Virus record (IMG/VR): IMGVR_UViG_3300009285_002434
Location: 1 to 29,759 of that record
Reading direction: 5' to 3' (one strand)
From: a virus
Length of the DNA: 29,759 nucleotides
Under the pieces are notes generated by a model. That model worked only from the letters and a program-made list of their open reading frames with translations. It had not been told where the DNA came from and ran no database searches. The position numbers and the translations under genes were made by a program. The stretch's first letter is position 1. The number at the start of each line of letters is the position of its first letter. Positions 7,947 to 22,648 of the stretch are shown here, in pieces.

Positions 7947-8271
7947 GGGTGGTGTTGACTCTTGAAACAGGTGTCTACTACTACCGCGTAACCCATCATG
8001 CACGTTGAGGTTAGCACGAAACCGCAGGTTCACTCTCTGCATATTATCAGACATTCCATGCTTGGCACCCCCACAGTTGCGTCAGGAGGGTCACCACGCC
8101 TCGATGCGGCCTTGAGCTGGTGTCGGATGCGGGTTGAGGCGAGAACGAGGCTGGAGGGGGTTCCCAAGGGCGCAGGAGAGGCCAGGGGGCGCACCCCACC
8201 GCTCCCGTCTGTCTCTATAAGCCTTTCACCCCCATCTCCGCGCGGCCACCAAAAATCGGAACGTAACTAAC
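7947..8271. other. Non-coding stretch after terS
   Basis: About 325 bases without a convincing gene. The open frame 7998-8270 reads as low-complexity Ser/Pro/Arg sequence with no ribosome binding site. A weak promoter-like pair lies at the left end (TTGACT 7955, TACTAC 7976, 15-bp spacer). The position beside terS makes it a candidate for part of the packaging site, but no clear repeat or hairpin supports this. Confidence 0.5.
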
Positions 8272-8496
8272 ATGAGCTTTACCAAGTGTTCCCGCTGTGG
8301 CGTGGAACATAATCCCTTTCAAGCGTGTCCTGATTTGGCAGAAAAAGTTTCTGCTGACGTAACTAACCCCGCGAACACAGCAACTAACCCTGCAACTAAC
8401 CGCGTGTATGCGTGGAGAGCGAAGCACCTCGACCGCTACCGAACCACCCAACGGGAGTTAATGCGGAAGCATCGTGGGGCAAAAAAAGTTTCCTGA
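8272..8496 (+). CDS. Zinc-motif protein with Asn/Thr-repeat linker
   Basis: The 74-aa protein opens with CSRCGVEHNPFQAC (about residues 6-19), a Cys-rich knuckle, followed by a linker VTNPANTATNPATN encoded by repeated ACTAAC strings, and then a basic helix (VYAWRAKHLDRYRTTQRELM) of the 'YxWRxxNxxRYxxYxRxYM' kind often seen in phage DNA-binding micro-proteins. The ribosome binding site is weak (GGAACGTAAC). The stop shares its last base with the next ATG. Confidence 0.6.
   Translation: MSFTKCSRCGVEHNPFQACPDLAEKVSADVTNPANTATNPATNRVYAWRAKHLDRYRTTQRELMRKHRGAKKVS
8338..8354. repeat. Perfect palindromic A-tract
   Basis: GCAGAAA and TTTCTGC flank a central AAG, a perfect 7-bp inverted repeat. It lies inside the coding part of 8272-8496 and resembles the elements in terS and at 3079-3094. 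Confidence 0.5.
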
Positions 8497-8639
8497 TGGA
8501 ACCCCTCCTCGGCAAAGAGTGTTGTCGGGTACGGTGTCTGACCCCCGCGTGCCCGGAAGTCGGGGTCGCCTACGACACCCTCTGGCCGCTGCCCCCCACC
8601 GGGGTCGTCTGTCGGAGTTGTGGAGCCCCCACCGCATGA
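8496..8639 (+). CDS. 47-aa zinc-ribbon micro-protein
   Basis: Joined to the genes on both sides by overlaps (TGATG before, ATGA into terL). The peptide has CCRVRCLTPAC near residues 9-19 and CRSCGAPT at the end, a four-Cys zinc ribbon. The in-frame start at 8412 would read through the previous gene and is rejected. Its position next to terL suggests a packaging or late-regulation accessory, without proof. Confidence 0.6.
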   Translation: MEPLLGKECCRVRCLTPACPEVGVAYDTLWPLPPTGVVCRSCGAPTA

Positions 8640-10210
8640 CCCTCACCCCCGCGCAGCTCGAACAGGCGAAAAACTTTACCCGCTGGGGGGCGTCCCTCTC
8701 CGTCTTTTGCCGCGAGGTCTTAGGCTACGCCGACCTTTTGCCGATCCATGACGAGTTCTGTCAGTTCATCCAAGACCCCACCCACCACTTCAAGCTGGGG
8801 TTGCTCCCGCGCTACTCGTTTAAGTCCTCCCTGGGGACAATCGGCTACACGCTCTGGCGGCTCGTCAGGGACGACGCCCTGCGCGTCTTGATTTACTCCG
8901 ACGCGACCGAACGAGCCCAAGCCTTCTTGACGGAAATCAAGCATCACCTCTTAGGCCAAAAGCCAGGGTCGCGCTTTCGGGAGGTCTACGGCGCGTGGGA
9001 GGTTGACCCCAAACAGGGGGTGTGGAATCAGAGTCAGATTGTCGTGCGACCGCGACAGACCGCCCACGCCGAGCCCTCAGTGGATACTGCTGGGGTGGAA
9101 TCGTCAAAGGTCGGAGCCCACTACGACCTCATCGTCTTCGATGACCTCGTGACCAAAGAGAACGTCACGACGAAAGACCTCATGGATAAGGTCTCTGACT
9201 GTTACCGCACGGCGCTGTCCCTCTTAAAACCCGGCGGGGAGGTGGTGCTCTGGGGCACCCGGTGGCACTTCGGGGATTTGTACGGACGCCTCGTGGCGGA
9301 AAATCTTGTGTCGAAGCGGTATGCGACGTTCATTCGGGATGCGGAGGTCGGAGAGGACGGGACGCCGTACCCCTTTGCGAAGATTGGCTTGACCAAACAC
9401 TTTCTCGCCCAACAGAAAGCGGAGCAGGGGAGCGCGAGATTTTCCTGTCTCTATCGCAACAACCCCGTCGATGACGAAACCGCCACCTTCAAGGCGGTGG
9501 ACTTTCGCTTCTACCAACCGGCGCAGAGCGATGCCTTTCAGTCCTGGTTGTCCACCCTCTACATCACGGCCGTCTTGGACGCGATTCCGCCGCCCACCTC
9601 CGACCACGGGGACGATGCGGCGATTGTCGTGGTCGGCACGGACTCGGAACACACGATGTTTCTCTTGGATGCCGTCGCGGGACGCCTCACTCCTGACCAA
9701 CAAATCGACACCTTGATGGCGATGCACCGCACATGGACGCTGCGGGTCGTGGGCCTGGAAACCAACGCCTTTCAACGGATGATTAAATCCGCGCTGGAAC
9801 GCCGGGTGCAGGAATCACGCAGTCAGCGCGACTTCCACCCCTTCTCGATTGTGGAGTTCACCGGCATTACCCAAGGCAACAAGGAGCAGCGGATTCAAGG
9901 CTTGCAACCGTGGCATGAACGGGGAGCCATTCGGTTTCCCGGCACCACCCTCCACACCCTCTCAGGCGTCTGGAGCCAACTTGCCTATCAAATGTTGCAG
10001 TTTCCCCACAGTCCCAAGGACGATTTGTTAGACAGCCTGAGTTATCACCTTAAATTGAAACAACCGGGAACGCCCCACGAGGTCAAAGAGGAGTTCCCCC
10101 GCACCTCGGCGGCCTGGTACGAGCGGGAGTGGTTCAAAAAGCAAATCAGAGAACGGGCACGGATGCCGAGGTGGAACCGGCCCCCGATGCCCCAGTTGGC
10201 GTTTAGTTGA
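8636..10210 (+). CDS. terL: Terminase large subunit (ATPase and nuclease)
   Basis: Start at ATG 8636 in an ATGA overlap; the frame from 8474 covers the upstream gene and is rejected. The 524-aa protein has an ATPase domain with an atypical Walker A (PRYSFKSS, about 58-65), Walker B (DLIVFDD, about 164-170) and the coupling motif (LWGTRWH, about 205-211). The C-terminal half is the RNase H-like nuclease: a strand ending in VLDAIPP, the acidic site GLETNAFQ, and DDLLDSLSYH near the end. This order is usual for tailed-phage packaging motors. It cuts concatemers and pumps DNA through the portal. Length is normal. Nothing looks damaged. Confidence 0.92.
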   Translation: MTLTPAQLEQAKNFTRWGASLSVFCREVLGYADLLPIHDEFCQFIQDPTHHFKLGLLPRYSFKSSLGTIGYTLWRLVRDDALRVLIYSDATERAQAFLTEIKHHLLGQKPGSRFREVYGAWEVDPKQGVWNQSQIVVRPRQTAHAEPSVDTAGVESSKVGAHYDLIVFDDLVTKENVTTKDLMDKVSDCYRTALSLLKPGGEVVLWGTRWHFGDLYGRLVAENLVSKRYATFIRDAEVGEDGTPYPFAKIGLTKHFLAQQKAEQGSARFSCLYRNNPVDDETATFKAVDFRFYQPAQSDAFQSWLSTLYITAVLDAIPPPTSDHGDDAAIVVVGTDSEHTMFLLDAVAGRLTPDQQIDTLMAMHRTWTLRVVGLETNAFQRMIKSALERRVQESRSQRDFHPFSIVEFTGITQGNKEQRIQGLQPWHERGAIRFPGTTLHTLSGVWSQLAYQMLQFPHSPKDDLLDSLSYHLKLKQPGTPHEVKEEFPRTSAAWYEREWFKKQIRERARMPRWNRPPMPQLAFS

Positions 10211-10851: not shown

Positions 10852-12789
10852 ATGCTTTCGCTCAGTGCTGACGAGCTCGCCAAGTGGCGGGCGGAAATTG
10901 ATTTAGGGGTCGAGTTCCGCGACCGGGAGTTTGGCACCTATCGCCAACAGGCGATGGGGTCGGCTCCGACGACGACGTTGGCGGGACGGAACCTCGATTA
11001 CTTTGAGCAGGGGGGACGCTCCGATGGGGTGGAACCCCCGCTCAATATCGCCTTTCCCATCATCAAGAACGTCGTGCCCACACTGCTCTATCAGTACCCC
11101 CGCGCCTCGGCCACCCCCGCCCCAGGGTATCGGGAGATTGCGGCAGCCGATGACGCCTTCTACGCCTCCCAACTCATTAACCAGGATTTGCGGGATACGG
11201 ACTTTCGCTTCAAGGATACCGGCCAGCAAATTGTGTTTGATTCGTATGCCTTGGGGTTCGGGGTGGGGAAGGTCGGGTATGCCACGGAGTTCGGCCCTGA
11301 TATTCTCCCGACCGACCAGGAGAACCGCCAGAAGCTCCGCGACCGCTTGACGGCCATCAAGAACAAGGTCTTGGAATCCTTGGGGATGCGTACCCCAAAG
11401 CCGGAGGAGGTCGAGCCGGAAGCGGTGCAGGCCGACTCGACCATTCGTTCCGAGCGCCCCTATTTTCAATGGATTTCCCCCTTTGATTTTGTCATTGACC
11501 CTCGCGCACGGGATTTGACGGATGCGCGATGGGTCGCCCAACGGATTCGCCGCACCCTCGGAGAGATTAAGCGCGACCGACGTTACAGCCGCGCCAAGCA
11601 TGAACTGCTCGCGGAGGCGGTGGATGATGACCGCGTCCCGTCGTCCTACGTCGAGGACTTCCAGACCGCCGATGTGTGGGAAGTCCACTACAAGACCCCC
11701 GATTCTCCCACGGGGATTACCGTCCTGACCTTTGCGGCGACGCAAGACCAGACGAAAGCGTTGATGCACGACCATTCGGTGTATGACTTGGGCGGGTGGC
11801 AGTTTGAGTGGCTGACCCTGAACAAGCACGGCCACCGGCTCTATCCCGTGTCGACCCTGTCCATCATCCGTCCGTTGCTTGACCGCGTGAACAGCACCTT
11901 TGAATCGATCTTGGAGCAGATTGACAAGTTCCAAGCCAAACTCGCCTTCAACGACCGCGTCAGCAAGGACGGGCAGGCGGCCTTGGATGCCAATGAGTTG
12001 GGAACCCGCGTGAAGGTGGATGGGACGGAGGACGTGCGTGGGGCGATAGCCGTCATCTCCATGAACCAGGTCTCCTCGGAACTCATGAACTTCGTTGACC
12101 GCGTCATGGATGTCATCATCCTCATCACCGGCCTCACCCGCGCTCAACTGACGGGGATGAGTACCGTCCAAACCGCCACCGAAGCCCAAATCGGCCAGTC
12201 GGGACAGACGCTCCGCCGGACGGATGAGGCCAATTTGGTGGGGGCGTGGGTGAATCGCGTCGTCACGAAACTCTGGCGCATCAAGGCGCAGTTCCAAACG
12301 CTGACGGAAGTGGATTTGCCGATGGAGGCGGCGGAGTTCAACGCACAGACCGGGGTGAACGCGACACAGTGGTATCCCCCGATTGATGAAGACCGCGCCG
12401 CGCGATTACGCAAGACGCGGTTTAAGTTCTTCATCGAGGTCGGCTCGATGCAAAAGCCGAACCTGGATATTCTCCGTGAGCAGTTCCGGCAGTTTGTCTT
12501 GGCGATGATGCAACCCGTCGTGACGAACGGCTTGGCCTTGGAAGGCAAGCGCCTCTCGGCCTCGGAGATCATCCGTCAGTGGTCGCAGTTCTTCGTGGAG
12601 GGGGGCTTGGAGTTGGGCTTTTCGAAGATGGTCGTGCCGGTCAACGACCCCGCGCAACTCCAATCGCTGATGCAGTTCGGCCAGAAACCCGAAGGGCAGA
12701 ACGGCAACCCCACGCAGGGGGTGACGAACCGCGCCGACATGATTTCTCGCGCCGCCGGGGAAAAAGGCATGGGGATGAGTCCTGTATGA
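10852..12789 (+). CDS. Portal protein
   Basis: The 645-aa protein fits podovirus-type portals: an N-terminal wing (NIAFPIIKNVVPTLLYQYPR), the clip-proximal text FDFVIDPRARDLTDARWVAQ near residues 210-230, and a long stem/crown helix series (RPLLDRVNSTFESILEQIDK, then TGLTRAQLTG near 425). It forms the dodecameric ring through which DNA enters and leaves. It follows the terminase genes and precedes the head genes, as usual. It contains no Cys. The large minus-strand frame across it is a codon-bias shadow. The stop overlaps the next start by ATGA. Confidence 0.85.
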   Translation: MLSLSADELAKWRAEIDLGVEFRDREFGTYRQQAMGSAPTTTLAGRNLDYFEQGGRSDGVEPPLNIAFPIIKNVVPTLLYQYPRASATPAPGYREIAAADDAFYASQLINQDLRDTDFRFKDTGQQIVFDSYALGFGVGKVGYATEFGPDILPTDQENRQKLRDRLTAIKNKVLESLGMRTPKPEEVEPEAVQADSTIRSERPYFQWISPFDFVIDPRARDLTDARWVAQRIRRTLGEIKRDRRYSRAKHELLAEAVDDDRVPSSYVEDFQTADVWEVHYKTPDSPTGITVLTFAATQDQTKALMHDHSVYDLGGWQFEWLTLNKHGHRLYPVSTLSIIRPLLDRVNSTFESILEQIDKFQAKLAFNDRVSKDGQAALDANELGTRVKVDGTEDVRGAIAVISMNQVSSELMNFVDRVMDVIILITGLTRAQLTGMSTVQTATEAQIGQSGQTLRRTDEANLVGAWVNRVVTKLWRIKAQFQTLTEVDLPMEAAEFNAQTGVNATQWYPPIDEDRAARLRKTRFKFFIEVGSMQKPNLDILREQFRQFVLAMMQPVVTNGLALEGKRLSASEIIRQWSQFFVEGGLELGFSKMVVPVNDPAQLQSLMQFGQKPEGQNGNPTQGVTNRADMISRAAGEKGMGMSPV

Positions 12790-13758: not shown

Positions 13759-14188
13759 CGTCCCAGAGGCCAAAACTGACCCCGCGCTGAAAGCGTTGGT
13801 GCGGGAGTTTTCCGAGGCGGTGAAAACCCTGCGGGGCATGAAACCGCCGAAAGCGGATGCCCACGCGACGATGATGATGAAGTCGCAAGACCGCCTCCTG
13901 GCCTCGATTGAGCGGATGCTGGCGGTCGTCGGGAAGCTGGCGAAGCAGAAGCCCGAACCGGCGCACGACTTCACGGGGATGAAGACGTTGTTTTCCGGCA
14001 TTGCCAACGACCTCAAGGACGCGATGAAATCGGCCTACAAACCGTCTTCAGTCCGTCCGAACGTCACGGTGAAACCGCAAGTGACGGTCTCCTTGGGCGG
14101 GTTGGAAAAGAAGTTTGACCGCCTCGAAACCGCGATGCGGGAGAGCGGTGCGCGGGGACGCAACCGCACCTTTGGGTCAAACTTCTGA
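13739..14188 (+). CDS. 149-aa helical protein with basic tail
   Basis: The start lies inside the end of the previous gene. The centre is helical with repeated hydrophobic spacing (LVREFSEAVKTLRG, LLASIERMLAVVGKLAKQ), and the C-terminal part has a short beta element (VTVKPQVTVSLGG) followed by a helix and Arg/Gly tail. It has no Cys and no signal peptide. It may be a minor virion or assembly protein. The stop shares a base with the next ATG (TGATG). Confidence 0.55.
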   Translation: MPVVTVNVPEAKTDPALKALVREFSEAVKTLRGMKPPKADAHATMMMKSQDRLLASIERMLAVVGKLAKQKPEPAHDFTGMKTLFSGIANDLKDAMKSAYKPSSVRPNVTVKPQVTVSLGGLEKKFDRLETAMRESGARGRNRTFGSNF

Positions 14189-14496
14189 TGTGGGTGGTCG
14201 TGTTCTTGCTCTTCGCGCAGAACGCCTGGGCAGGGAACTTTCCTGGCGAGCAACCCGTCTATGGCCGCGACCAAGGGCGCACCACGCTGCTCTTTTATGT
14301 CGCAGCGGGAAACGGGGCGGGGAAAGTCGAATACATCTGCACCGCCGATGCGGGGACGGCGAGTTCCTCGGCGCGGTGGCAAATCTCTCGCCTGACCTAT
14401 GACAGCAGCGACCGCGTGTCCGAGATTGAATGGGCAGGGTCAACAGACAATTTTACGAACATTTGCGATAACCGTGCCAGCCTGACGTTCAACTGA
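14188..14496 (+). CDS. Exported virion-type domain protein
   Basis: The first 15 residues (MWVVVFLLFAQNAWA) are a short but clear signal peptide with an AWA-type cleavage site. The rest matches a small domain common in tailed-phage structural genes, 'KVEYIxxAxxGT...WQIxRLTYDS...I-W-A-G...F-x-x-I-x-D-N-R-A-S-L'. Here the positions after EYI and NI are Cys (CTADA, CDNRA), the only two in the mature protein, which could form a disulfide after export. Known family members are usually not exported. Role in the virion is unknown. Confidence 0.7.
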   Translation: MWVVVFLLFAQNAWAGNFPGEQPVYGRDQGRTTLLFYVAAGNGAGKVEYICTADAGTASSSARWQISRLTYDSSDRVSEIEWAGSTDNFTNICDNRASLTFN

Positions 14497-14612
14497 TGCC
14501 TGCGAACAAGAATTGGAACGCGCAGCAAACACGCACGCAACCCAAGTTTGAGGGACGACCAGCCTTCATGGTCAACAAGAAAAAGACCAAGAAAAAGAAA
14601 CAGTCGTACTAG
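14496..14612 (+). CDS. 38-aa Lys-rich micro-protein
   Basis: TGATG overlap with the previous gene; ends at TAG 14612. The C-terminus is KKKTKKKKQSY, strongly basic. It is the last gene before the strong terminator at 14659. It may bind DNA or RNA. Its reality rests on the overlap and on the lack of any gap in this gene series. Confidence 0.5.
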   Translation: MPANKNWNAQQTRTQPKFEGRPAFMVNKKKTKKKKQSY

Positions 14613-14617
14613 TTTGT

Positions 14618-14645
14618 AGGGTTTCGGCTCGCTACCGAAATCCCC
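14618..14645 (+). other. RNA hairpin upstream of terminator
   Basis: GGGTTTCGG pairs with CCGAAATCCC (one bulged base) around a 7-nt loop. It sits just before an outer pairing CCAACGA (14644-14650) with TCGTTGG (14698-14704) that would enclose the terminator. This could be an antitermination or processing signal. Confidence 0.45.
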
Positions 14646-14658
14646 AACGAGGTTTGAG

Positions 14659-14698
14659 AGCGGCTATTGGGAGCCCAATCTCCTGATAGCCGCTTTTT
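14659..14698 (+). terminator. Strong intrinsic terminator within the structural region
   Basis: AGCGGCTAT (14659-14667) pairs with ATAGCCGCT (14686-14694); the stem continues inward through two wobble pairs to GGAG/CTCC, about 15 bp, with loop CCCAAT, followed by five T. It separates the terminase/portal gene block from scaffold and capsid. No clear promoter is visible in 14699-14778. Confidence 0.88.
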
Positions 14699-14778
14699 CG
14701 TTGGTGTTCAGCGACGGACGCACCCGCCCCCTCGTCCAGGGCATGACGTAGCCGACCTCGTCACGGCAAGGAGGCACC

Positions 14779-15654
14779 ATGCCAGTCGAAGACGAGGCCC
14801 AGCGTGAGACCTTCGGGGACGCCCCCGGCTGGTCGGATCGAGAAACCACGACGGAGCCTCAAAAGAAGGGTGTAGCGGGAGCCTCGCCCACTCCAGACGC
14901 AGAACCCGCCCCGTCAGCGGAACCCTCTCAGGATGAGGGGTCATCGGTCGAACCGGCACCGGAGCAGGCACCTCCGACACCAAGCCAGCCGGAACCCGCC
15001 GATGTGCCGTTCAACCAGCATCCACGGTGGATTGAGCGGCAACGGGAATTGGAAGAGGCTCGGCGACAGCGGGATGAGGCCATGCGCCTCGCGCAAGAGG
15101 CGGTCTCGCGTCCTGTCCAAGCCGTTCAGCCGTCGGCTCCGCAGGTTGACCCGTGGGAGCGGTTGGTCAACGACCCCGACCCCGTGACCGCGCAGGGATG
15201 GAGAAATCTCCAGTCCCTTATGCAACACGAGCGGCGTCAAGCGAAGCTGGAGGCGGTGCAAGAACTCCAGCCCGTGATTCAAGCGGGCATGGAGAAGTTG
15301 GCGCAATTTGACCTGCGGGACTTCCGCAAGGAGAACCCCGACATCAAGCCGGGGTCGGCGGACGAGCAGCAGATTGTGTCCTACATGAACGGACAGGTGG
15401 ACGGGGTGCGGCACCCCTTGGAAAGCGCAAAGCGCAATGTGCTCTTTGACCGGCTGAAAACCGAAGTCACTTCCCTGAAAACGAAACAGGCCGCGATTCC
15501 CCAGAAACGGGCCGCGGCGTCCTCAGAGTCCTCGGCGGGCATCCCTGCCGGGGCGGGACTGCCCCCGAAACCCGGCGATTGGCGCGAACGCGCTGGCGCG
15601 GTGGTGGATAAGGGGGGTTCCATGATGGACGCGGCGAAAGCCATTTTTGGGTGA
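14779..15654 (+). CDS. Probable scaffolding protein
   Basis: GGCAAGGAGGCACC gives a strong start at 14779. The 291-aa protein has an acidic, Pro/Glu-rich N-terminal third, a long charged coiled coil near residues 85-110 (ERQRELEEARRQRDEAMRLA), and a helical C-terminal part (ELQPVIQAGMEKLAQFDLRD). No Cys is present. Composition, size and the place directly before the major capsid gene are those of a head scaffold. It would line the inside of the procapsid and leave or be cleaved before packaging. No protease gene is seen nearby. Confidence 0.75.
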   Translation: MPVEDEAQRETFGDAPGWSDRETTTEPQKKGVAGASPTPDAEPAPSAEPSQDEGSSVEPAPEQAPPTPSQPEPADVPFNQHPRWIERQRELEEARRQRDEAMRLAQEAVSRPVQAVQPSAPQVDPWERLVNDPDPVTAQGWRNLQSLMQHERRQAKLEAVQELQPVIQAGMEKLAQFDLRDFRKENPDIKPGSADEQQIVSYMNGQVDGVRHPLESAKRNVLFDRLKTEVTSLKTKQAAIPQKRAAASSESSAGIPAGAGLPPKPGDWRERAGAVVDKGGSMMDAAKAIFG

Positions 15655-15677
15655 CACGGCATACCTAGGAAGACGCG

Positions 15678-16628
15678 ATGCCAGCAGGGACAAACTTTGC
15701 GACGGCACAGACATCGCGTACGCAACCGAACTTCGGCGACGAAGTCTTTGACGGAATTTCCAGCAATAACGCGCTCGTCTGGGTGCTCCGTCAACAGGGG
15801 AACATCAAGGTCTCGGACGGGGGGCGCACCTTTACCCACCCGTTGCACTTCGCCTTGAACTCCTCGTTTGCGGCGCGCAATCACGACGCCACCATTCCGA
15901 CCCCCGACCCGCAGACCCACACGCACTCGGAATGGAATGTTCGCACGATTAGCGGGTCGATTACGCTCTACAAGCTCCACCAGGCGATGAACCAGGGCAA
16001 GGCGGTTATCCTGAAGTACCTGGAGGAGAAGCGGCAGTCGTCCACGGTCTCCGTGACGGAGATTTTGGGCGACGAGCTCGTGGATGGCTCCGGCACGGCC
16101 CCCTCGTGGGACTCGCTGGAAACCATCATTTCCGGCACCAACACGACCACCGTGGGCGGGATTGCGGGCTCGGATGCCACGTGGCAGAACTATTCGGCGG
16201 CCACGGGTGGGGCGTTTAACACAAGCAACAACGGCATTACCGCGTGGGATGCGGCTGTCCGAGGCACCACGTTCGGCAACCAAAGCCCCACGGTCGTCCT
16301 GACCACCTCGGCGGTGTTCGGGCTCTATTACATCAGCCAAGCAGGAGCCATCCGTTACTACAACGAGCAGTTGGCCGACGCCCACTTCGAGCACTTGAAC
16401 TTCGGGCGGCGACCGGTCTTGTGGGACGACAACATTGACGCCGGGTTGACCTACTTCGTCAACACGCGAAGCCTGTGGCTTCAGGTGTTGCGGCAGGGCA
16501 ACCTCGTGACGACGGAGTTCGAGCCTGCCGTCACACAGTTGTCGAACGTGGCGCTGATGTATCTCTTTGGCAACCTGACGACCGGCAACCGACGCACGCA
16601 AGGCGTCGTGACCGGCCAAACCAGCTAA
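15678..16628 (+). CDS. Major capsid protein (HK97-type)
   Basis: The 316-aa protein has the features of a common podovirus/siphovirus capsid family: the N-arm (FDGISSNNALVWVLRQQGNI), an early 'GGRTFTHPLHFALN' element, the helix-rich middle (LYKLHQAMNQGKAVILKYLEE), 'SPTVVLTTSAVFGLYY' near residue 210, and the C-terminal ending VALMYLFGNLTTGNRRTQGV. These fit the HK97 fold. There is no Cys and no delta domain or protease nearby. It is the main shell protein and follows the scaffold. The large minus-strand frame across it is a codon shadow. Confidence 0.85.
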   Translation: MPAGTNFATAQTSRTQPNFGDEVFDGISSNNALVWVLRQQGNIKVSDGGRTFTHPLHFALNSSFAARNHDATIPTPDPQTHTHSEWNVRTISGSITLYKLHQAMNQGKAVILKYLEEKRQSSTVSVTEILGDELVDGSGTAPSWDSLETIISGTNTTTVGGIAGSDATWQNYSAATGGAFNTSNNGITAWDAAVRGTTFGNQSPTVVLTTSAVFGLYYISQAGAIRYYNEQLADAHFEHLNFGRRPVLWDDNIDAGLTYFVNTRSLWLQVLRQGNLVTTEFEPAVTQLSNVALMYLFGNLTTGNRRTQGVVTGQTS

Positions 16629-16640
16629 GAGGAGATGACG

Positions 16641-17153
16641 ATGCAGAAACTTCTTTTCGCACTCGCCCTCCTTTTGGCAGGGAGTGGCGTCGCCTTCGCG
16701 GACAGCATCCCGACCGTGGTGGATGCGCAGGCGGGGGGTGGACGGAACGTCTGGACGATGACGGTGTTCAACGACTCCGGCGAAACGATTCAGTCGGGGG
16801 AAATTGCTGTATGGGATCAAGCGGATTCAGACGTAGAAGATGGTGGGCTTCCGTATGTCACCCTTGCTGCGGTGAATTCCAGTCCCTATACGGCTGGGGT
16901 CATCTTGAACACCTGCGCCAACCAGACGCAGTGTGAAATGGCCGTTATGGGCATTACCAAGGTGCGGTGTCTGGACTCGTCTGCCGCAGTTACGGAAGGC
17001 GACTTGGTTGGCACCACGAGCTTTGATGCAGGCTTGTGTGGCGACCATACCGCCGGGGCAGACAACCGAGCCGTTGGGATTGCCTTGGAAGCTGGGAACA
17101 CGACCGATTATGAGTATATCGACGTGTTCGTTTACCCAGGCGACGGGCAGTAA
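16641..17153 (+). CDS. Exported decoration-like capsid protein
   Basis: ATG 16641 is used because AAGAGGAG lies at good spacing; ATG 16635 touches that site. The N-terminus MQKLLFALALLLAGSGVAFA is a textbook signal peptide. The mature part has the beta-rich 'V-T-E-G-D-L-V-G-T-T-S ... R-A-V-G-I-A-L-E-A-G' ending found in DUF2190-like capsid decoration proteins. Four Cys (TCANQTQC, RCLDSS, LCGDH) are in the mature part. Location right after the capsid gene supports a head decoration role. Export is unexpected for such a protein. Confidence 0.7.
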   Translation: MQKLLFALALLLAGSGVAFADSIPTVVDAQAGGGRNVWTMTVFNDSGETIQSGEIAVWDQADSDVEDGGLPYVTLAAVNSSPYTAGVILNTCANQTQCEMAVMGITKVRCLDSSAAVTEGDLVGTTSFDAGLCGDHTAGADNRAVGIALEAGNTTDYEYIDVFVYPGDGQ

Positions 17154-17157
17154 GTGA

Positions 17158-18339
17158 ATGCGATGGCGGCAGGCGGGCTGGGGGCTCTTCCTGGCTGGCC
17201 TGCCGCTGTCGCCTCTTTTAATCGGGCCGTTGACCGGCCACAAGATTGATTTATGGCACAGTCAAGCATGGTGGACGCACCTCTGGCTCATTCTCCTCGT
17301 GGGGATGTCGCTCTCATCGGGGACGTGTCAGGTTGTCCGCAATCTGCCCCTAGCGTGCTGGACGGTCTGGATGGGGGGCTGGTGGGCGGTGTCGTTTCTC
17401 CGCTCCATCATGTCGTCCCAGGGCTACGACCTAGCCCAGATGCTGGGAATCCTGCACCTCGCAACGGGATTGGTTGCGTACCTTCTTGCGACCCAAGTGA
17501 CCCGCGAGGAGTGGCCGACCATCCTCCGATGGGTGGCACGAACGGGCGTCGTGTTGAGCGTGTATGGGCTCTTGCAGGCGGCAGGCTTTGAGCAGTTTTT
17601 CACGGATATCATTCATCATGCGAAGAACCGCCGGGTCTTGGGGACGATTGGCAACCCCTCCCACTACGCGGCGTACCTGTCATGCGTCCTGCCCTGTGTA
17701 TTAGGACAGTCCGGCAGACAGTGGAAGGTTGGCGCGGGTCTTGTGCTGACGGCGATTGTCGTCAGCCGGTCGTTGGGCGGCATGGTGGCGGCGGCCCTCG
17801 TCCTGCTGGTGTGGTGGTGGTGCCGCAACCGAAAACTCTTTTGGTGGGGGCTGGCGGGTATCGGCGGGTTGGCAGGGCTTCAGTACGCCGTGGATGTGTG
17901 GGGCTTACAGCATGGGCACAGCACCCCGGTCTTTAGCATGAGCGGACGGCTCTTGCGGTGGGGGCTGTTTCTCGACCTCTTTCGTGAGCGGCTGATTACC
18001 GGCTCCGGCCCAGGAGCGATTTTGGCGCTCTCACAAACGATACCCAATGATGAAAAGCACCCGTTATACCACTGGCGGCATTGTCATAACGAGTATCTGC
18101 AACTGCTTATCGAGCAGGGCGTGGTGGGCTTGGCTGCGGTGGGGTGGATGCTGACGGACTGGTGGCGTAAGGCGTGGGCGTTTCGATATGACCGCACCGC
18201 GCTCATGTTGACCTTAGTCGGAGTCGCCTTTCTCTGCAACGCGGTCTACAACTTTCCCGCCCATTTGTGGATCATGGCCTCGTTGGGGCTGGTGGCCTAC
18301 GGGGGCATCTATGGATATTGGAGTGAACGGACGGCATAA
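17158..18339 (+). CDS. O-antigen ligase/polymerase homologue (Wzy_C)
   Basis: The 393-aa protein has around ten hydrophobic membrane segments and the WaaL/Wzy_C signature: GTIGNPSHYAAYL (about 162-174), SGRLLRW (262-268), TGSGPG (281-286) and HCHNEYLQLLIEQGVVGL (308-325), with the conserved HNEYLQ on the large periplasmic loop. Such enzymes join or polymerise O-antigen at the periplasmic face. The gene is sandwiched with no gap between the decoration gene (4 bases before) and the adaptor (its TAA is directly followed by the next ATG). So it is a settled member of the virion operon rather than a loose insertion. It likely alters host LPS, for superinfection exclusion or to release progeny. Confidence 0.82.
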   Translation: MRWRQAGWGLFLAGLPLSPLLIGPLTGHKIDLWHSQAWWTHLWLILLVGMSLSSGTCQVVRNLPLACWTVWMGGWWAVSFLRSIMSSQGYDLAQMLGILHLATGLVAYLLATQVTREEWPTILRWVARTGVVLSVYGLLQAAGFEQFFTDIIHHAKNRRVLGTIGNPSHYAAYLSCVLPCVLGQSGRQWKVGAGLVLTAIVVSRSLGGMVAAALVLLVWWWCRNRKLFWWGLAGIGGLAGLQYAVDVWGLQHGHSTPVFSMSGRLLRWGLFLDLFRERLITGSGPGAILALSQTIPNDEKHPLYHWRHCHNEYLQLLIEQGVVGLAAVGWMLTDWWRKAWAFRYDRTALMLTLVGVAFLCNAVYNFPAHLWIMASLGLVAYGGIYGYWSERTA

Positions 18340-19332
18340 ATGGCAGCCCTGACGACCCTCAAGCAACTGCGAGACCACGTCGCCTCCACGGTGCGTGAGA
18401 CGCAAATTAGCGACTTGATTGATGCGTACATCAACCAAACCGCCCTCGACCTCTGGCTCTTTCATCCGTGGACATTTCGGCGCAAGCGCCTGACGTTTGC
18501 GACAGTCCTTGACCAAGAATTTTACAATCTCGACTCCGAGATTGACGAGATCGCGGTCTTACGGCAAATCTCCACCCCCGTCCGGCTCATCTACATTCCC
18601 GATTCATTGTTCTACAAGACCGTCCCGAACCCGGAAGACCAGGGCAGCGGGGTGCCGCGCTACTACCGCCGGTGGGAAGAAACGGGGTTTGGGACGAACC
18701 TTGCCGCCGCCGATACCGTCTATGTCAGCTCCTCCTCCACCTCGGACGGTTCCTCGTTTACGGTGCGGATTCGAGGACGCAATTCCAGCGGGGAAGTCAT
18801 CGAGGAAACCTTGACCCTCAATGGGACGACCTCGGTGACGAGCACAACGACGTGGGCGGCAGATGGGTTGTTTCAAATCTCCAAGTCTGGCACAACCACC
18901 GGCACCGTGACTTGTTACCGCACGACCGGGGCCACCGTCCTGGCGGAGATGGAGCCGAACAATCTTGCCCCCCGGTTTATCCGCATCGGGCTATTTCCCA
19001 TCCCCTCCTCGGCGGTGACGATGTATCTGGAATACTACGAGCGGTTCCGCTATCTCGTCCACAACACCGATGTCCCCCAGATGGATCACAAATGGAACGG
19101 GGTGCTGTTGGAAGGCACGTTGGCAAAGGCGTGGGAATACAAGCAAAGCGCCTCGCTCTCGACCCAACACTTGACGATGTACGAAGCGGGCAAGGTGCGG
19201 ATGCGGATGCAGGATGAACGGAACATGGACTATATCCCGGTCTTGGAGCGCCGGGTGCGGATGCGCCCGATGGTGCGCCGGTACAGCGATTCCGTGAGCG
19301 ACAACTTCCCGGTCTATGGCGTGGGGTACTAG
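18340..19332 (+). CDS. Head-to-tail adaptor with inserted Ig-like domain
   Basis: The N-terminus (LRDHVASTVRETQISDLIDAYINQTALDLWLFHPW) and the C-terminal part (VTMYLEYYERFRYLVHNTDVPQ, KAWEYKQSASLSTQHL) match podovirus adaptor proteins of the P22 gp4-like kind. Between residues of about 125 and 195 a beta-rich segment (FTVRIRGRNSSGEVIEETL, then a Ser/Thr-rich strand series) looks like an inserted Ig-like domain, of the type that often decorates phage virions. There is one Cys and no signal peptide. It would sit between portal and hub. It overlaps the hub gene by 17 bases. Confidence 0.65.
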   Translation: MAALTTLKQLRDHVASTVRETQISDLIDAYINQTALDLWLFHPWTFRRKRLTFATVLDQEFYNLDSEIDEIAVLRQISTPVRLIYIPDSLFYKTVPNPEDQGSGVPRYYRRWEETGFGTNLAAADTVYVSSSSTSDGSSFTVRIRGRNSSGEVIEETLTLNGTTSVTSTTTWAADGLFQISKSGTTTGTVTCYRTTGATVLAEMEPNNLAPRFIRIGLFPIPSSAVTMYLEYYERFRYLVHNTDVPQMDHKWNGVLLEGTLAKAWEYKQSASLSTQHLTMYEAGKVRMRMQDERNMDYIPVLERRVRMRPMVRRYSDSVSDNFPVYGVGY

Positions 19333-21172
19333 ATGCCTGGTCGCGCTACTGTTGGTAGCGACGCCGGTTTGGGCGCAGGACGAGTGGCAAACCTACCCGG
19401 CCACGGGCGGGGTCGTGCCGTTTCTCGGCTTGGACGATTCCTCCGCTCCCACCCAAGTCCAAGACGGACGCGCCCAAGACCTCCAGAACGTCGTACTCTC
19501 TGCCTCCCGCGACCTGCGGCAACGCTACGGTTCCAGCCGGGTCGGGCTGACGCTCGACATCGCGGGGGAAGACCCGCAAGCCGTCACGGGGCTCTACTAC
19601 ACGAAGTTCTCGGACGGTACCGAGCGGATTCTTGGCACGATTTCCAGCCGCTTCGTGCGGCTCTCCGGCTCGACCTGGGTGTCGAATACCGCGTCGGGGG
19701 CGGTGGCGATTACGGGCGGGCAGAACAATCAATTCGTCTTTACGACCGCCTTCGACAACGTAATTCTCACCAACGATGTCAACCCCCCCATCCGCTACAC
19801 GTCAGACAACAAATATACCGCCTGGGAGTTTGGGGGGTTGGGGACGGATACGCCTACAGCAGTCAAGGTTGTGGCCTTCTTCAAGAATTATCTCCTCGTC
19901 GCCAACACGGTGGAGAACAGTGTCGAGCATCCCACCCGCATCCGGTGGTCGAATGTGGGGGAGGTCAACGTCTGGACAGAGGACGACCGGGTCGATATTG
20001 CGGCCTTAGGCGGGCAAGAAATCAACTGTGTGGGGGAACTCTACGACAACCTCTACATCGGGTTGACCGATTCGGTCTACAAAGTCTCCTTGGTGGGGGG
20101 GGACGGGGTCTTTCAGATCAGCAAGGTGACGGACGATATCGGGTGTATTGCCAAAAACTCCGTGCAGTCCATTACGCTGACCAACGCCCAGAACGGGCTC
20201 ATCTTTCTCGACAAGGACAAGCGTATCTACTTCTTCAACGGGATTGTGGCGCAGGACGTGTCCGCACTCATCGAAACGACGATGACCGGCTTATCGGGGT
20301 CGCGGCTGCAATATGCAGTCAGTACGGATACCAACAGCGATTACCTGTTGTGCATAACAGACGCGACGGGGTCGGGCAACAATCTCTGCCTCGACTTAGA
20401 GTACGAATTGGGCGAATGGACGAAGCACGTCAACATCAACGCCAACGCGATGGCACACGTCTTGGACAGCAACGCCCAAGACCAGGTGTATTGGGGCAGC
20501 GACAAGGCGTTTGTCTATCAGTACGAGGACGCCGACCTGCGGGACGATGTGGGCTCGGCCACGGGGACGGTCAGCAACGTCGGGACGTACTCGACCCCCT
20601 TTCAAGCATCGGCCTCCATCCTTTATCTCACCTCCGGCTCCACGGCAATGGTGTCAGGAGAGTTGGCGGGAGCGCCGTTGGAACTGACCAGCGGGACGGG
20701 ATCGGGGCAGACGAATACCGTCATCTACAACACCACCTCCGGCCTCGTCGTGTCGGATGCGTGGGCAACGACCCCCGATGCGACGACCGTGCTGGAAGTC
20801 GGCGCGATCGACAGTTTCTACACGACGAAGTGGTACGACTTCGGCGAACCCGTCCGGCTCAAGCACTTCGGGGAAACGTACTTGTGGGGCGATGCGGATA
20901 TTCCCTCGACCCACTCGATTGCCTACGCCAACGATTTTTCCAGCGATGTGGAAACCGTGGTGGTGGCACAGTCCGCATCTGCGACATCTTCGGCTTGGGG
21001 CTCGGCGGTGTGGGGGGTGTCGCTGTGGGGGGATGTCGATGCGATTTTCCGGCAAGTCAAGGTGTCGGGGCAGGGGCGGTTTCACCGGTTGAAGTTCTCA
21101 GAAGATGACCCTGGACAGACGTTTCGTTGGTTTGGCTGGACTCCTTTGTATCGCGCTGGGGAGCGCAACTAA
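19316..21172 (+). CDS. Exported beta-propeller-like tail hub
   Basis: Starts at ATG 19316, inside the adaptor gene. Residues of about 1-20 (GTRCLVALLLVATPVWAQ) form a signal peptide with a VWA cleavage site. The mature part (618 aa in total) reads as repeated blades with 'DGRAQDLQNVVLSASRDLRQ', 'YDNLYIGLTDSVYKVSL', 'NGLIFLDKDKRIYFFNG' and 'VYWGSDKAFVYQYEDAD', in the style of P22 gp10-like hub/stabilisation proteins. Four Cys lie in the mature part (INCVGE, IGCIAKN, LLCITD, NNLCLDL). The signal peptide on a tail hub is unusual. It overlaps the next gene by 68 bases. Confidence 0.62.
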   Translation: MAWGTRCLVALLLVATPVWAQDEWQTYPATGGVVPFLGLDDSSAPTQVQDGRAQDLQNVVLSASRDLRQRYGSSRVGLTLDIAGEDPQAVTGLYYTKFSDGTERILGTISSRFVRLSGSTWVSNTASGAVAITGGQNNQFVFTTAFDNVILTNDVNPPIRYTSDNKYTAWEFGGLGTDTPTAVKVVAFFKNYLLVANTVENSVEHPTRIRWSNVGEVNVWTEDDRVDIAALGGQEINCVGELYDNLYIGLTDSVYKVSLVGGDGVFQISKVTDDIGCIAKNSVQSITLTNAQNGLIFLDKDKRIYFFNGIVAQDVSALIETTMTGLSGSRLQYAVSTDTNSDYLLCITDATGSGNNLCLDLEYELGEWTKHVNINANAMAHVLDSNAQDQVYWGSDKAFVYQYEDADLRDDVGSATGTVSNVGTYSTPFQASASILYLTSGSTAMVSGELAGAPLELTSGTGSGQTNTVIYNTTSGLVVSDAWATTPDATTVLEVGAIDSFYTTKWYDFGEPVRLKHFGETYLWGDADIPSTHSIAYANDFSSDVETVVVAQSASATSSAWGSAVWGVSLWGDVDAIFRQVKVSGQGRFHRLKFSEDDPGQTFRWFGWTPLYRAGERN

Positions 21173-21440
21173 TGTCGGCGCGTATCGGCCCGAACAGCCG
21201 GATACCTTTACCGACCTCGCGGACAGCAACCAACTCTCGAAGCTGAACAATGTCTTGCAGCAATTCTTCAACGTCACCAACGGACGCTACACGGTGGATG
21301 TCACAACGACCGACCCCGACGGGTCGCGGCGGTGTACGAAAGGAGAGCTGATTCTCTATGATCCTGGCGCGTCGGAGGAACTGTGCGTGTGTGTGGATGA
21401 AGCGACTAGTAATTGGGATTGCGCTCTTTTGTCTGACTGA
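21105..21440 (+). CDS. Exported Cys-rich tail protein
   Basis: ATG 21105 lies 68 bases inside the hub gene, so the signal peptide (FVGLAGLLCIALGSATNVGA) is read from DNA that also encodes the hub C-terminus. The mature part has a short helix (LADSNQLSKLNNVLQQFFN), then beta strands, and four Cys in the last third (RRCTKGE, ELCVCVDE, DCALL). The 'G-x-L-x-L-Y-D...C-V-C...W' end resembles small fibre or tail domains. Function unknown. It overlaps the next gene by 44 bases. Confidence 0.6.
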   Translation: MTLDRRFVGLAGLLCIALGSATNVGAYRPEQPDTFTDLADSNQLSKLNNVLQQFFNVTNGRYTVDVTTTDPDGSRRCTKGELILYDPGASEELCVCVDEATSNWDCALLSD

Positions 21441-22251
21441 CCCCGCGTGGGCGGCTTGTCCGTCGCGGTCGTTCACCTACACCGCAGGGCAAGCGATTGA
21501 ACCTGCGGAAGTGACGACCAACGAGCAGAACGCCTACGACTACCTCTGTGCAGGGGTGGATACCTACAAGAGCAACTCCATTACGTCAGCTACGCTCCAA
21601 GACGGGGCGGTCACGTCGGCCAAGTTGGGGACAGGCGCGGTGACGACCACCGTAATTCTTGACAATACGATTACGACCACCGACCTTAACGCGACCCTCA
21701 CGCTGAGTGACGCAGATTACCTCGACCTCTCGGCCATCCTGCATGACGATACGGCGCTTCAGGGGTTGCGGTTGCCGCAAATCGGCGCCACGCCTTCGAG
21801 CCCGACGAGTGGCGAAGGGCAGATCGGGTGGGATGAAACGAACAATATGCTGGAAGTCTACAACGGTACGAGTTGGGCGAATGTGAGTCCTGACCCCCTC
21901 ACCCTCACGACCGCTGGCCCCGCCACCCCCGTCGCCAACACCCTCTATACCGATAACATCGTCAAGGGGTGGTGCTACTTTGTGGATGGAGGCACCGCCG
22001 CCATTACCGATGACTTCAACGTGGCGAGCATTGCCGATAACGGGACGGGCGATTACACGATTACCTGGGAAACGGATTTGGCGAATGCGAACTATGCCGT
22101 GGCGGGGACGGCCACCGACGCCACCACTCCCGACTTTATCTTAGTCGAAATCTCCCGTACCGCAGGGACGACACGGGTGGGGGTGTCGAACAGCGGGGGG
22201 ACGGCGGTGGATGCGGCAGGCGGGGCGTCGGTTCTTGTGATAGGAGACTGA
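21397..22251 (+). CDS. Exported tail-fibre-like protein
   Basis: ATG 21397 gives a signal peptide (KRLVIGIALFCLTDPAWA) followed by AACPS; a lipobox is just conceivable but Trp at -3 is atypical. The mature part has fibre-type repeats (SATLQDGAVTSAKLGTGAV, TTTDLNATLTLSD), then 'SSPTSGEGQIGWDETNNMLE' and a C-terminal beta domain with LVEISRTAGTTRVGVSNSGG. This is the layout of tail fibres and capsid fibres. Three Cys are in the mature part. The frame upstream of 21397 is the shadow of the previous gene. It may contact the host surface. Confidence 0.65.
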   Translation: MKRLVIGIALFCLTDPAWAACPSRSFTYTAGQAIEPAEVTTNEQNAYDYLCAGVDTYKSNSITSATLQDGAVTSAKLGTGAVTTTVILDNTITTTDLNATLTLSDADYLDLSAILHDDTALQGLRLPQIGATPSSPTSGEGQIGWDETNNMLEVYNGTSWANVSPDPLTLTTAGPATPVANTLYTDNIVKGWCYFVDGGTAAITDDFNVASIADNGTGDYTITWETDLANANYAVAGTATDATTPDFILVEISRTAGTTRVGVSNSGGTAVDAAGGASVLVIGD

Positions 22252-22252
22252 A

Positions 22253-22648
22253 ATGCGCTACCTCTGGATGTGCTTGCTAGTCGGGATGGGCACGGCATCT
22301 GCCGACCCCGTAACGGTGTGTGCAACCTCACAGGGGACTGTGACTGTCATCTCTCTCAGTCCCCGACCAGGACGACCAGGCGAAACCTTTGAGCAGACGG
22401 CGGCGCGTCGTCTCGCGGACACCTTAGCTGGTCGTGCGGACATTGACCCCGCCGACTGCGTGGCAATGGATGATACGACACTCCCGACGACGAGGCGTGA
22501 GGCGTGGAAACTCCAAGGCAAGCGCGTGGTGATTGACCCGACCGTCCCCGACCCGCAGAACGCGAAAGACGCCACAGAAGCGCGGGTGAAGGCGGCGTTG
22601 GGACTCACCGATAGCGAACTAGCGGATTTGAAGGATGCTCTGCGTTAA
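22253..22648 (+). CDS. Exported 131-aa protein with two cysteines
   Basis: GGAGACTGAA precedes ATG 22253, and the start follows the fibre stop by one base. The N-terminus (MRYLWMCLLVGMGTASA) is a signal peptide with ASA cleavage. The mature part has Cys at VTVCATS and ADCVAMD, a possible disulfide, and a charged helical C-terminus (ALGLTDSELADLKDALR). It is a likely minor virion or assembly factor; no family is recognised. The last 14 bases overlap the next gene. Confidence 0.6.
   Translation: MRYLWMCLLVGMGTASADPVTVCATSQGTVTVISLSPRPGRPGETFEQTAARRLADTLAGRADIDPADCVAMDDTTLPTTRREAWKLQGKRVVIDPTVPDPQNAKDATEARVKAALGLTDSELADLKDALR

Follow-up and report, generated by a model that had tools for sequence, protein, structure and literature searches.

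Bacteria use membrane enzymes of this family to transfer sugar chains on the outer side of the inner membrane, and phage enzymes of the O-antigen type are known as optional, serotype-converting genes. The locus described here raises the question of what such an enzyme does as an invariant member of a virion operon, where it is linked to virion proteins bearing export signals. The window, that is, the whole stretch of DNA that was analysed, is a complete IMG/VR virus record of 29,759 bases. It contains an intact open reading frame (ATG start, 393 amino acids) whose product matches the Pfam family PF04932 (Wzy_C) over residues 194-327 with a score of 64.2 bits (E 1.5e-17, cut-off 31.7), and PHROG and NCBIfam searches with this protein gave no match. 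Its loop reads CHNEYLQLLIEQGVVG. The gene is separated by 4 bases from the one upstream, and the adaptor gene begins at the base after its end, a gap of 0 (Table 1). When the region 14500-22300 was scanned for promoters and terminators, such signals were no commoner than in shuffled sequence. Judged from the spacing, late co-expression of Wzy_C with the virion genes is likely.

The initial annotation had described a WaaL/Wzy-type enzyme packed inside a virion operon between a decoration gene and an adaptor gene. The enzyme type is borne out by the Pfam score and by the match to the WaaL fold presented below, and the packing by the coordinates of the reading frames. The upstream gene is adjacent and its product carries a predicted signal peptide; "decoration", the name used below, is a guess from position. 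This small protein had no Pfam match above cut-off, no PHROG match and no credible PDB sequence match (best E 0.35), and its AlphaFold model was poor (pLDDT 53.6).

Table 1. Features of the window, and the gene interposed between decoration and Wzy_C genes in related loci (locus given before the coordinates).
Feature	Coordinates	Strand	Basis
Large terminase	8474..10210	+	phrog_38, E 1.4e-74
Portal protein, no signal peptide	10852..12789	+	phrog_1216, E 3.4e-8
Small protein, possible weak signal peptide (no positive N-region)	14188..14496	+	by eye
Major capsid protein, no signal peptide; bait for finding relatives	15678..16628	+	phrog_9953, E 1.7e-29
Small Cys-rich protein with predicted Sec signal peptide (first 22 aa), head-decoration slot	16635..17153	+	position, signal rule
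Wzy_C / WaaL-fold polytopic membrane protein	17158..18339	+	Pfam, AlphaFold, PDB 7tpg, 24-member alignment
Head-tail adaptor, no signal peptide	18340..19332	+	PF24175 SU10_adaptor, 45.2 bits, cut-off 27
Tail nozzle/stabilisation-type virion protein with N-terminal signal-peptide extension	19316..21172	+	phrog_3287, E 6.9e-30
Small protein, signal-peptide-like N-terminus MTLDRRFVGLAGLLCIALGSATNVGA	21105..21440	+	by eye; homologues at same place in relatives
Tail-fibre-type protein, signal-peptide-like N-terminus, likely start ~21397	21358..22251	+	phrog_11355 tail fiber, E 1e-12; sequence
Small protein, signal-peptide-like N-terminus	22253..22648	+	by eye
Interposed lipoprotein gene	L059:6604-6867, L060:8315-8578, L062:8341-8565		pattern
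Interposed lipoprotein gene	L068:9366-9593, L070:6749-6970, L071:10512-10712, and others		pattern

An AlphaFold2 model of Wzy_C, built on eight members of the phage group, contains about 12 transmembrane (TM) helices (pLDDT 78.5, pTM 0.83). Foldseek matched it to WaaL (7tpg) at E 1.2e-5, and VIA-align aligned 359 residues of the two with Z 22.5, an rmsd of 4.4 and 12% identity; WaaL was the best fold match, followed by SEDS proteins at Z 12.9 and lower (range 10-13). The model thus has a WaaL-like membrane fold with a periplasmic loop between late TM helices. PDB entry 9rmk was absent among the matches of the fold searches, and the best BFVD match of the model was weak (E 5e-3). All 24 aligned group members match PF04932 at E 1, and two of the seven Wzy_C records of the early set, one of them truncated, score below the PF04932 cut-off. 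Residues R264, W268, G282, G284, G286, H310, G321 and G324 are invariant in the 24 proteins, and H308, E312, E319 and H369 are kept in 23. The Arg equivalent to R215 of E. coli WaaL and R224 of PglL is lost, with R at position 204 in 1/24 members and at 206 in none. A structural comparison with WaaL had been proposed with the initial annotation, and conservation of the loop residues had been set beforehand as a test of it; both came out in its favour. From the family and the fold, a transfer of lipid-linked glycan on the periplasmic side would follow, and we are highly confident that the protein is a glycan transferase of the Wzy_C fold.

The comparison with individual enzymes is less one-sided. 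Three residues, R215, R288 and H338, are reported as important for E. coli WaaL in the accessible part of PMC3643930; the equivalents of R288 and H338 are R264 and H310 (24/24), whereas the equivalent of R215 is Arg in one member of 24, so that two of the three residues are kept. Likewise, R265 of 7tpg aligns with R264 and its loop His with H310, and the H-x10-G-x-x-G spacing is shared, but R191 (R215 in E. coli) is not conserved; moreover, WaaL is encoded in an LPS locus and the group protein in a phage virion operon. We infer that 9rmk is Neisseria PglL, as the residue numbers in the alignment fit those in the accessible part of PMC3643930. The equivalents of PglL R298, H349, G316 and G318 are invariant in the group, R298 and H349 corresponding to R264 and H310, whereas PglL has 610 residues and the window protein 393. 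PF15864 (PglL_A) matched none of the 24 members at E 1; of the PglL_A residues H400, E404 and P406, the group has no His at 361, no Glu at 365, and Pro at 367 in 17/24. Instead of the PglL_B residues Q178 and N180 there is a GNPSH-type motif, with Gln at the Q178 equivalent in 1/24. Searched against the PDB, an 8-member profile found 9rmk as its sole match (E 4.7e-4, about 300 residues), and a 24-member profile ranked WaaL 7tpg (8.2e-8) above PglL 9rmk (1.4e-6). The oligosaccharyltransferase models TfpM (E 1.1e-7) and PEP_O_lig_1 (E 2.6e-4) each matched one member, both far below cut-off. By these family tests the protein is a member of the Wzy_C superfamily that is strictly neither a WaaL nor a PglL, and it may work like either. 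In its placement it resembles pglL, which often adjoins the gene of its target protein in the same orientation (PMC3643930, accessible part): a gene for a signal-peptide protein lies upstream of Wzy_C in all loci with both genes, directly or across a lipoprotein gene, although such a neighbour is common for pglL rather than required and the upstream protein is only a candidate target.

PF04932 is present in 26 of 33 related IMG/VR records (the window, 7/8 capsid relatives, 0/4 portal-side fragments and 18/20 further records); the other seven records all stop short of the slot. The eight relatives found through the capsid, at about 70-87% identity, include seven in which Wzy_C is flanked by the signal-peptide protein and the adaptor, or is so as far as the contig reaches; the record of the eighth (L009) stops inside the capsid gene. 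A broader capsid profile yielded 26 loci, 23 of them with Wzy_C and three (L009, L069 and L073) ending before the slot; two more loci with the gene, L057 and L060, came from an adaptor profile. The portal-side fragments L027, L031, L032 and L034 lack it and, by their length and portal position, stop before the slot. The order capsid, decoration, Wzy_C, adaptor holds in 21 of the 21 loci that have all four genes, a count, like those of identity, from which L005 and L064 were removed beforehand; near-duplicates within the counts are L005/L006, L063/L064/L066 and L077/L078. The loci span a GC content of 36-58% (window about 0.58), and capsid identity to the window falls to about 38%. Thus the gene occurs in every relative whose record covers the slot, the presence that the initial annotation had named as a test, and the gene order that it had suggested looking for in other phages is kept. 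Wzy_C is almost certainly a core gene of this phage group.

Outside the group, tblastn with the window protein found nothing among 50,697 phage records, and searched alone the protein had no close relatives in viral contig or plasmid sets. The Wzy protein of L007 had no match in the phage records, and that of L070 had one weak match, to Halomonas phage YPHTV-1 (L079), in which an O-antigen ligase gene (8203-9462) lies among tail genes and adjoins the O-acetyltransferase gene oatA, in a context unrelated to that of the group. Capsid and portal profiles found no match and no prophage in the genome contig set, and tRNA genes were absent from the window and from 11 loci.

Most low-GC relatives have a predicted lipoprotein of 66-89 amino acids with two CxxC pairs encoded between decoration and Wzy_C. 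It was found by pattern in 11 of 15 loci and by eye in L050; the pattern search did not find it in L065, L066 or L075.

The neighbours of Wzy_C bear export signals, as had been noted initially. Signal peptides were predicted by one simple mechanical rule rather than by SignalP. By this rule, a cleavable Sec signal peptide is present on 25 of 26 decoration proteins, the remaining one being cut by the contig end, and on 20 of 23 nozzles, as against none of 27 capsid, 23 portal and 23 adaptor proteins. The three nozzles missed by the rule (L045, L059 and L075) look signal-like by eye, and two of them lack a standard start codon. Residues 33-371 of the window nozzle match positions 8-344 of the phrog_3287 profile; because this profile starts about 25 residues into the protein, the signal is a head added N-terminally to a known virion family. 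The fibre-type genes of G005 and G025 carry signals too. In distant named phages, where it was applied to annotated starts only, the rule flagged two proteins out of 124 and none of the 12 nozzles; in the group, all in-frame starts within the first 100 codons were considered. PF04932 is likewise found in none of 14 distant named phage records (two sets of seven), so that Wzy_C and exported virion proteins appear to come together. For example, the podophages Mx9, BUCT555 and ppBjS10J-1 resemble the group in their capsids (23-25% identity) and in a similar order of portal, capsid, adaptor and nozzle, but lack Wzy_C, and their post-capsid and nozzle proteins bear no signal peptide.

Cysteine content points the same way: with L005, L009, L064 and genes cut by the contig end left out, Cys per 100 residues was 2.29 in the mature decoration protein and 0.84 in the nozzle, compared with 0.51 in capsid, 0.28 in portal and 0.22 in adaptor. 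The content of Ser plus Thr, counted on the same set, is no marker of the exported proteins (decoration 0.194, nozzle 0.200, capsid 0.189, adaptor 0.187). Judged from these sequence features, the neighbours of Wzy_C are very probably truly exported. Given signal peptides on decoration, nozzle and fibre proteins and none on capsid, portal and adaptor, it is possible that the tail is assembled outside the cytoplasm.

Mean pairwise identity is 0.34 for Wzy_C and 0.35 for decoration, compared with 0.55 for capsid and 0.50 for adaptor. The dN/dS of Wzy_C is about 0.12 (L004/L045), 0.10 (L071/L074) and 0.17 (L077/L078); by these estimates the gene diverges fast but is under purifying selection. In a mirror-tree comparison, Wzy divergence showed a stronger correlation with that of portal (r 0.89) and of adaptor (0.83) than with that of decoration (0.73), and the analysis therefore does not single out the upstream protein as a partner. 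The mosaic locus L045 (IMGVR_UViG_3300009285_003301) is identical to L004 at 86% in Wzy_C and 92% in the nozzle, and at 55% in decoration and 40% in capsid, which indicates that the block from Wzy to nozzle can move between capsid types.

The reading that we consider most likely, and hold tentatively, is that Wzy_C takes a lipid-linked glycan of the host and attaches it to virion proteins that are exported. Made together with the virion genes, Wzy_C would be an inner-membrane protein whose catalytic loop faces the periplasm, and would act there as a phage O-oligosaccharyltransferase. The donor would be a glycan that the host builds on undecaprenyl lipid, and the acceptor would be one or more of the exported virion proteins, beginning with the small Cys-rich product of the gene just upstream and followed by the nozzle and fibre proteins. 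Tail and decoration parts would join heads made in the cytoplasm only after export, around the time of lysis. The fixed coupling to virion proteins with signal peptides is the reason why the acceptor could be these proteins rather than LPS. A virion acceptor is favoured by this constant linkage, considering that genes for oligosaccharyltransferases adjoin those of their targets (PMC3643930, accessible part), by 9rmk as the sole PDB match of the 8-member profile together with the weak TfpM and PEP_O_lig_1 matches, and also by the signal added to the nozzle and the Cys enrichment of the exported proteins. Against it stand the higher rank of WaaL over PglL with the 24-member profile; the absence of PF15864 and of H400 and E404 equivalents; the loss of the R215-type Arg; divergence rates that do not mark the upstream protein as a partner; the L045 mosaic, in which Wzy travels with the nozzle and not with decoration; and the lipoprotein gene interposed in most low-GC relatives. 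Neither a glycosylation site nor a glycan was noticed. Taken together, the data suggest, without proving, a virus that sugar-coats its own parts. The fuller picture, in which a lytic-looking podophage group sends decoration, nozzle and fibre proteins out by Sec, adds host glycan to them in the periplasm by means of a dedicated oligosaccharyltransferase that it encodes itself, completes its virions only after export and releases particles coated in host sugar, is one that we put forward with some doubt.

Alternatively, the enzyme might modify the host surface. An O-antigen polymerase or ligase made late in infection could alter nascent LPS or capsule, which would keep exported fibres and progeny from being caught on the dying cell, or shut superinfecting phages out of it. 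This is the main alternative, possible if somewhat doubtful. Phage phi297 reportedly carries a Wzy-beta/O-antigen ligase moron. According to the accessible part of PMC9658991, D3-like Wzy-beta, from a temperate phage, has a known or proposed O-antigen role, and VG_p25 of the temperate phage VarioGold is a Wzy_C protein of the O-antigen type with about 10 TM helices, whose gene lies next to the lysis genes and opposite to the late genes. WaaL is both the best fold match and the best sequence match of the larger profile, fast divergence of Wzy_C would suit variable host glycans, and in YPHTV-1 the O-antigen ligase gene adjoins oatA within the tail genes. However, the known cases are morons of temperate phages, and although the genes of D3, phi297 and VarioGold are also phage-borne Wzy_C genes, that of the group is universal and lies inside the virion operon. 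A moron belongs to a temperate phage, varies in presence and has its own transcription unit; the group gene does not fit this description, because it is universal in its slot, its gaps are 4 and 0 bases, and no PF00589 integrase, the one recombinase family searched, was found in 29 group records, many of them fragments. The contrast that the initial annotation drew with lysogenic-conversion genes therefore holds, and we regard Wzy_C not as a moron but as a fixed gene with a function in this uncultivated group of podophages. In addition, late synthesis cannot strip LPS that is already displayed, which weakens the idea that the receptor is hidden, and an unsystematic look through the genes that were read noticed no Wzz, flippase or glycosyltransferase partner.

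Another scenario is that Wzy_C serves as a membrane platform for assembly. With its fold related to SEDS proteins (FtsW/RodA), it might bind exported tail proteins or the lipid carrier, or block the synthesis of an envelope polymer, and transfer no glycan to a specific acceptor. The position of SEDS folds next in the list, the universal linkage with exported virion proteins and the loss of the R215 equivalent are compatible with such a role, but R264, H310 and the GxGxG motif are invariant in 24/24 members, as expected of a working transferase, and we consider the scenario improbable. The idea that the gene was acquired recently by chance, or that cellular DNA was mis-binned as viral, has nothing but the rarity of the gene in named phages in its favour. 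It can be dismissed in view of the presence of the gene in 26/33 records in the same slot, over a GC range of 36-58% and under purifying selection; synteny likewise rejects a chance insertion.

The finding goes beyond what was first stated: Wzy_C belongs to the core genes of a phage group whose tail parts carry export signals. If the virion is the acceptor, as in the glycan-transfer reading that we prefer, these phages would have a pathway of their own for protein glycosylation, and part of tail assembly would take place outside the cytoplasm, against the textbook picture. If the acceptor is a host glycan, the enzyme would perform a late, universal step of receptor editing. A virus-borne O-oligosaccharyltransferase and extracytoplasmic tail assembly would, if true, each be a novelty among tailed phages, to judge from the open PMC literature; nothing matching signal-peptide virion proteins or phage oligosaccharyltransferases was found in it, and the accessible part of the StenR_269 phage paper held no parallel.

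Three further observations concern other genes of the group. The best named relative of the window terminase is that of the ANMV-1 virus (uncultured archaeon), with 28% identity. In G005, a signal-peptide protein (L017:12413-12892) has a DPBB_1 (RlpA-like) domain at 38.5 bits and perhaps acts on the host wall. In G025, a signal-peptide protein (L080:4204-5049) has a Laminin_G_3 lectin domain at 87 bits and, judged from these features, is likely to be an exported glycan-binding tail protein.
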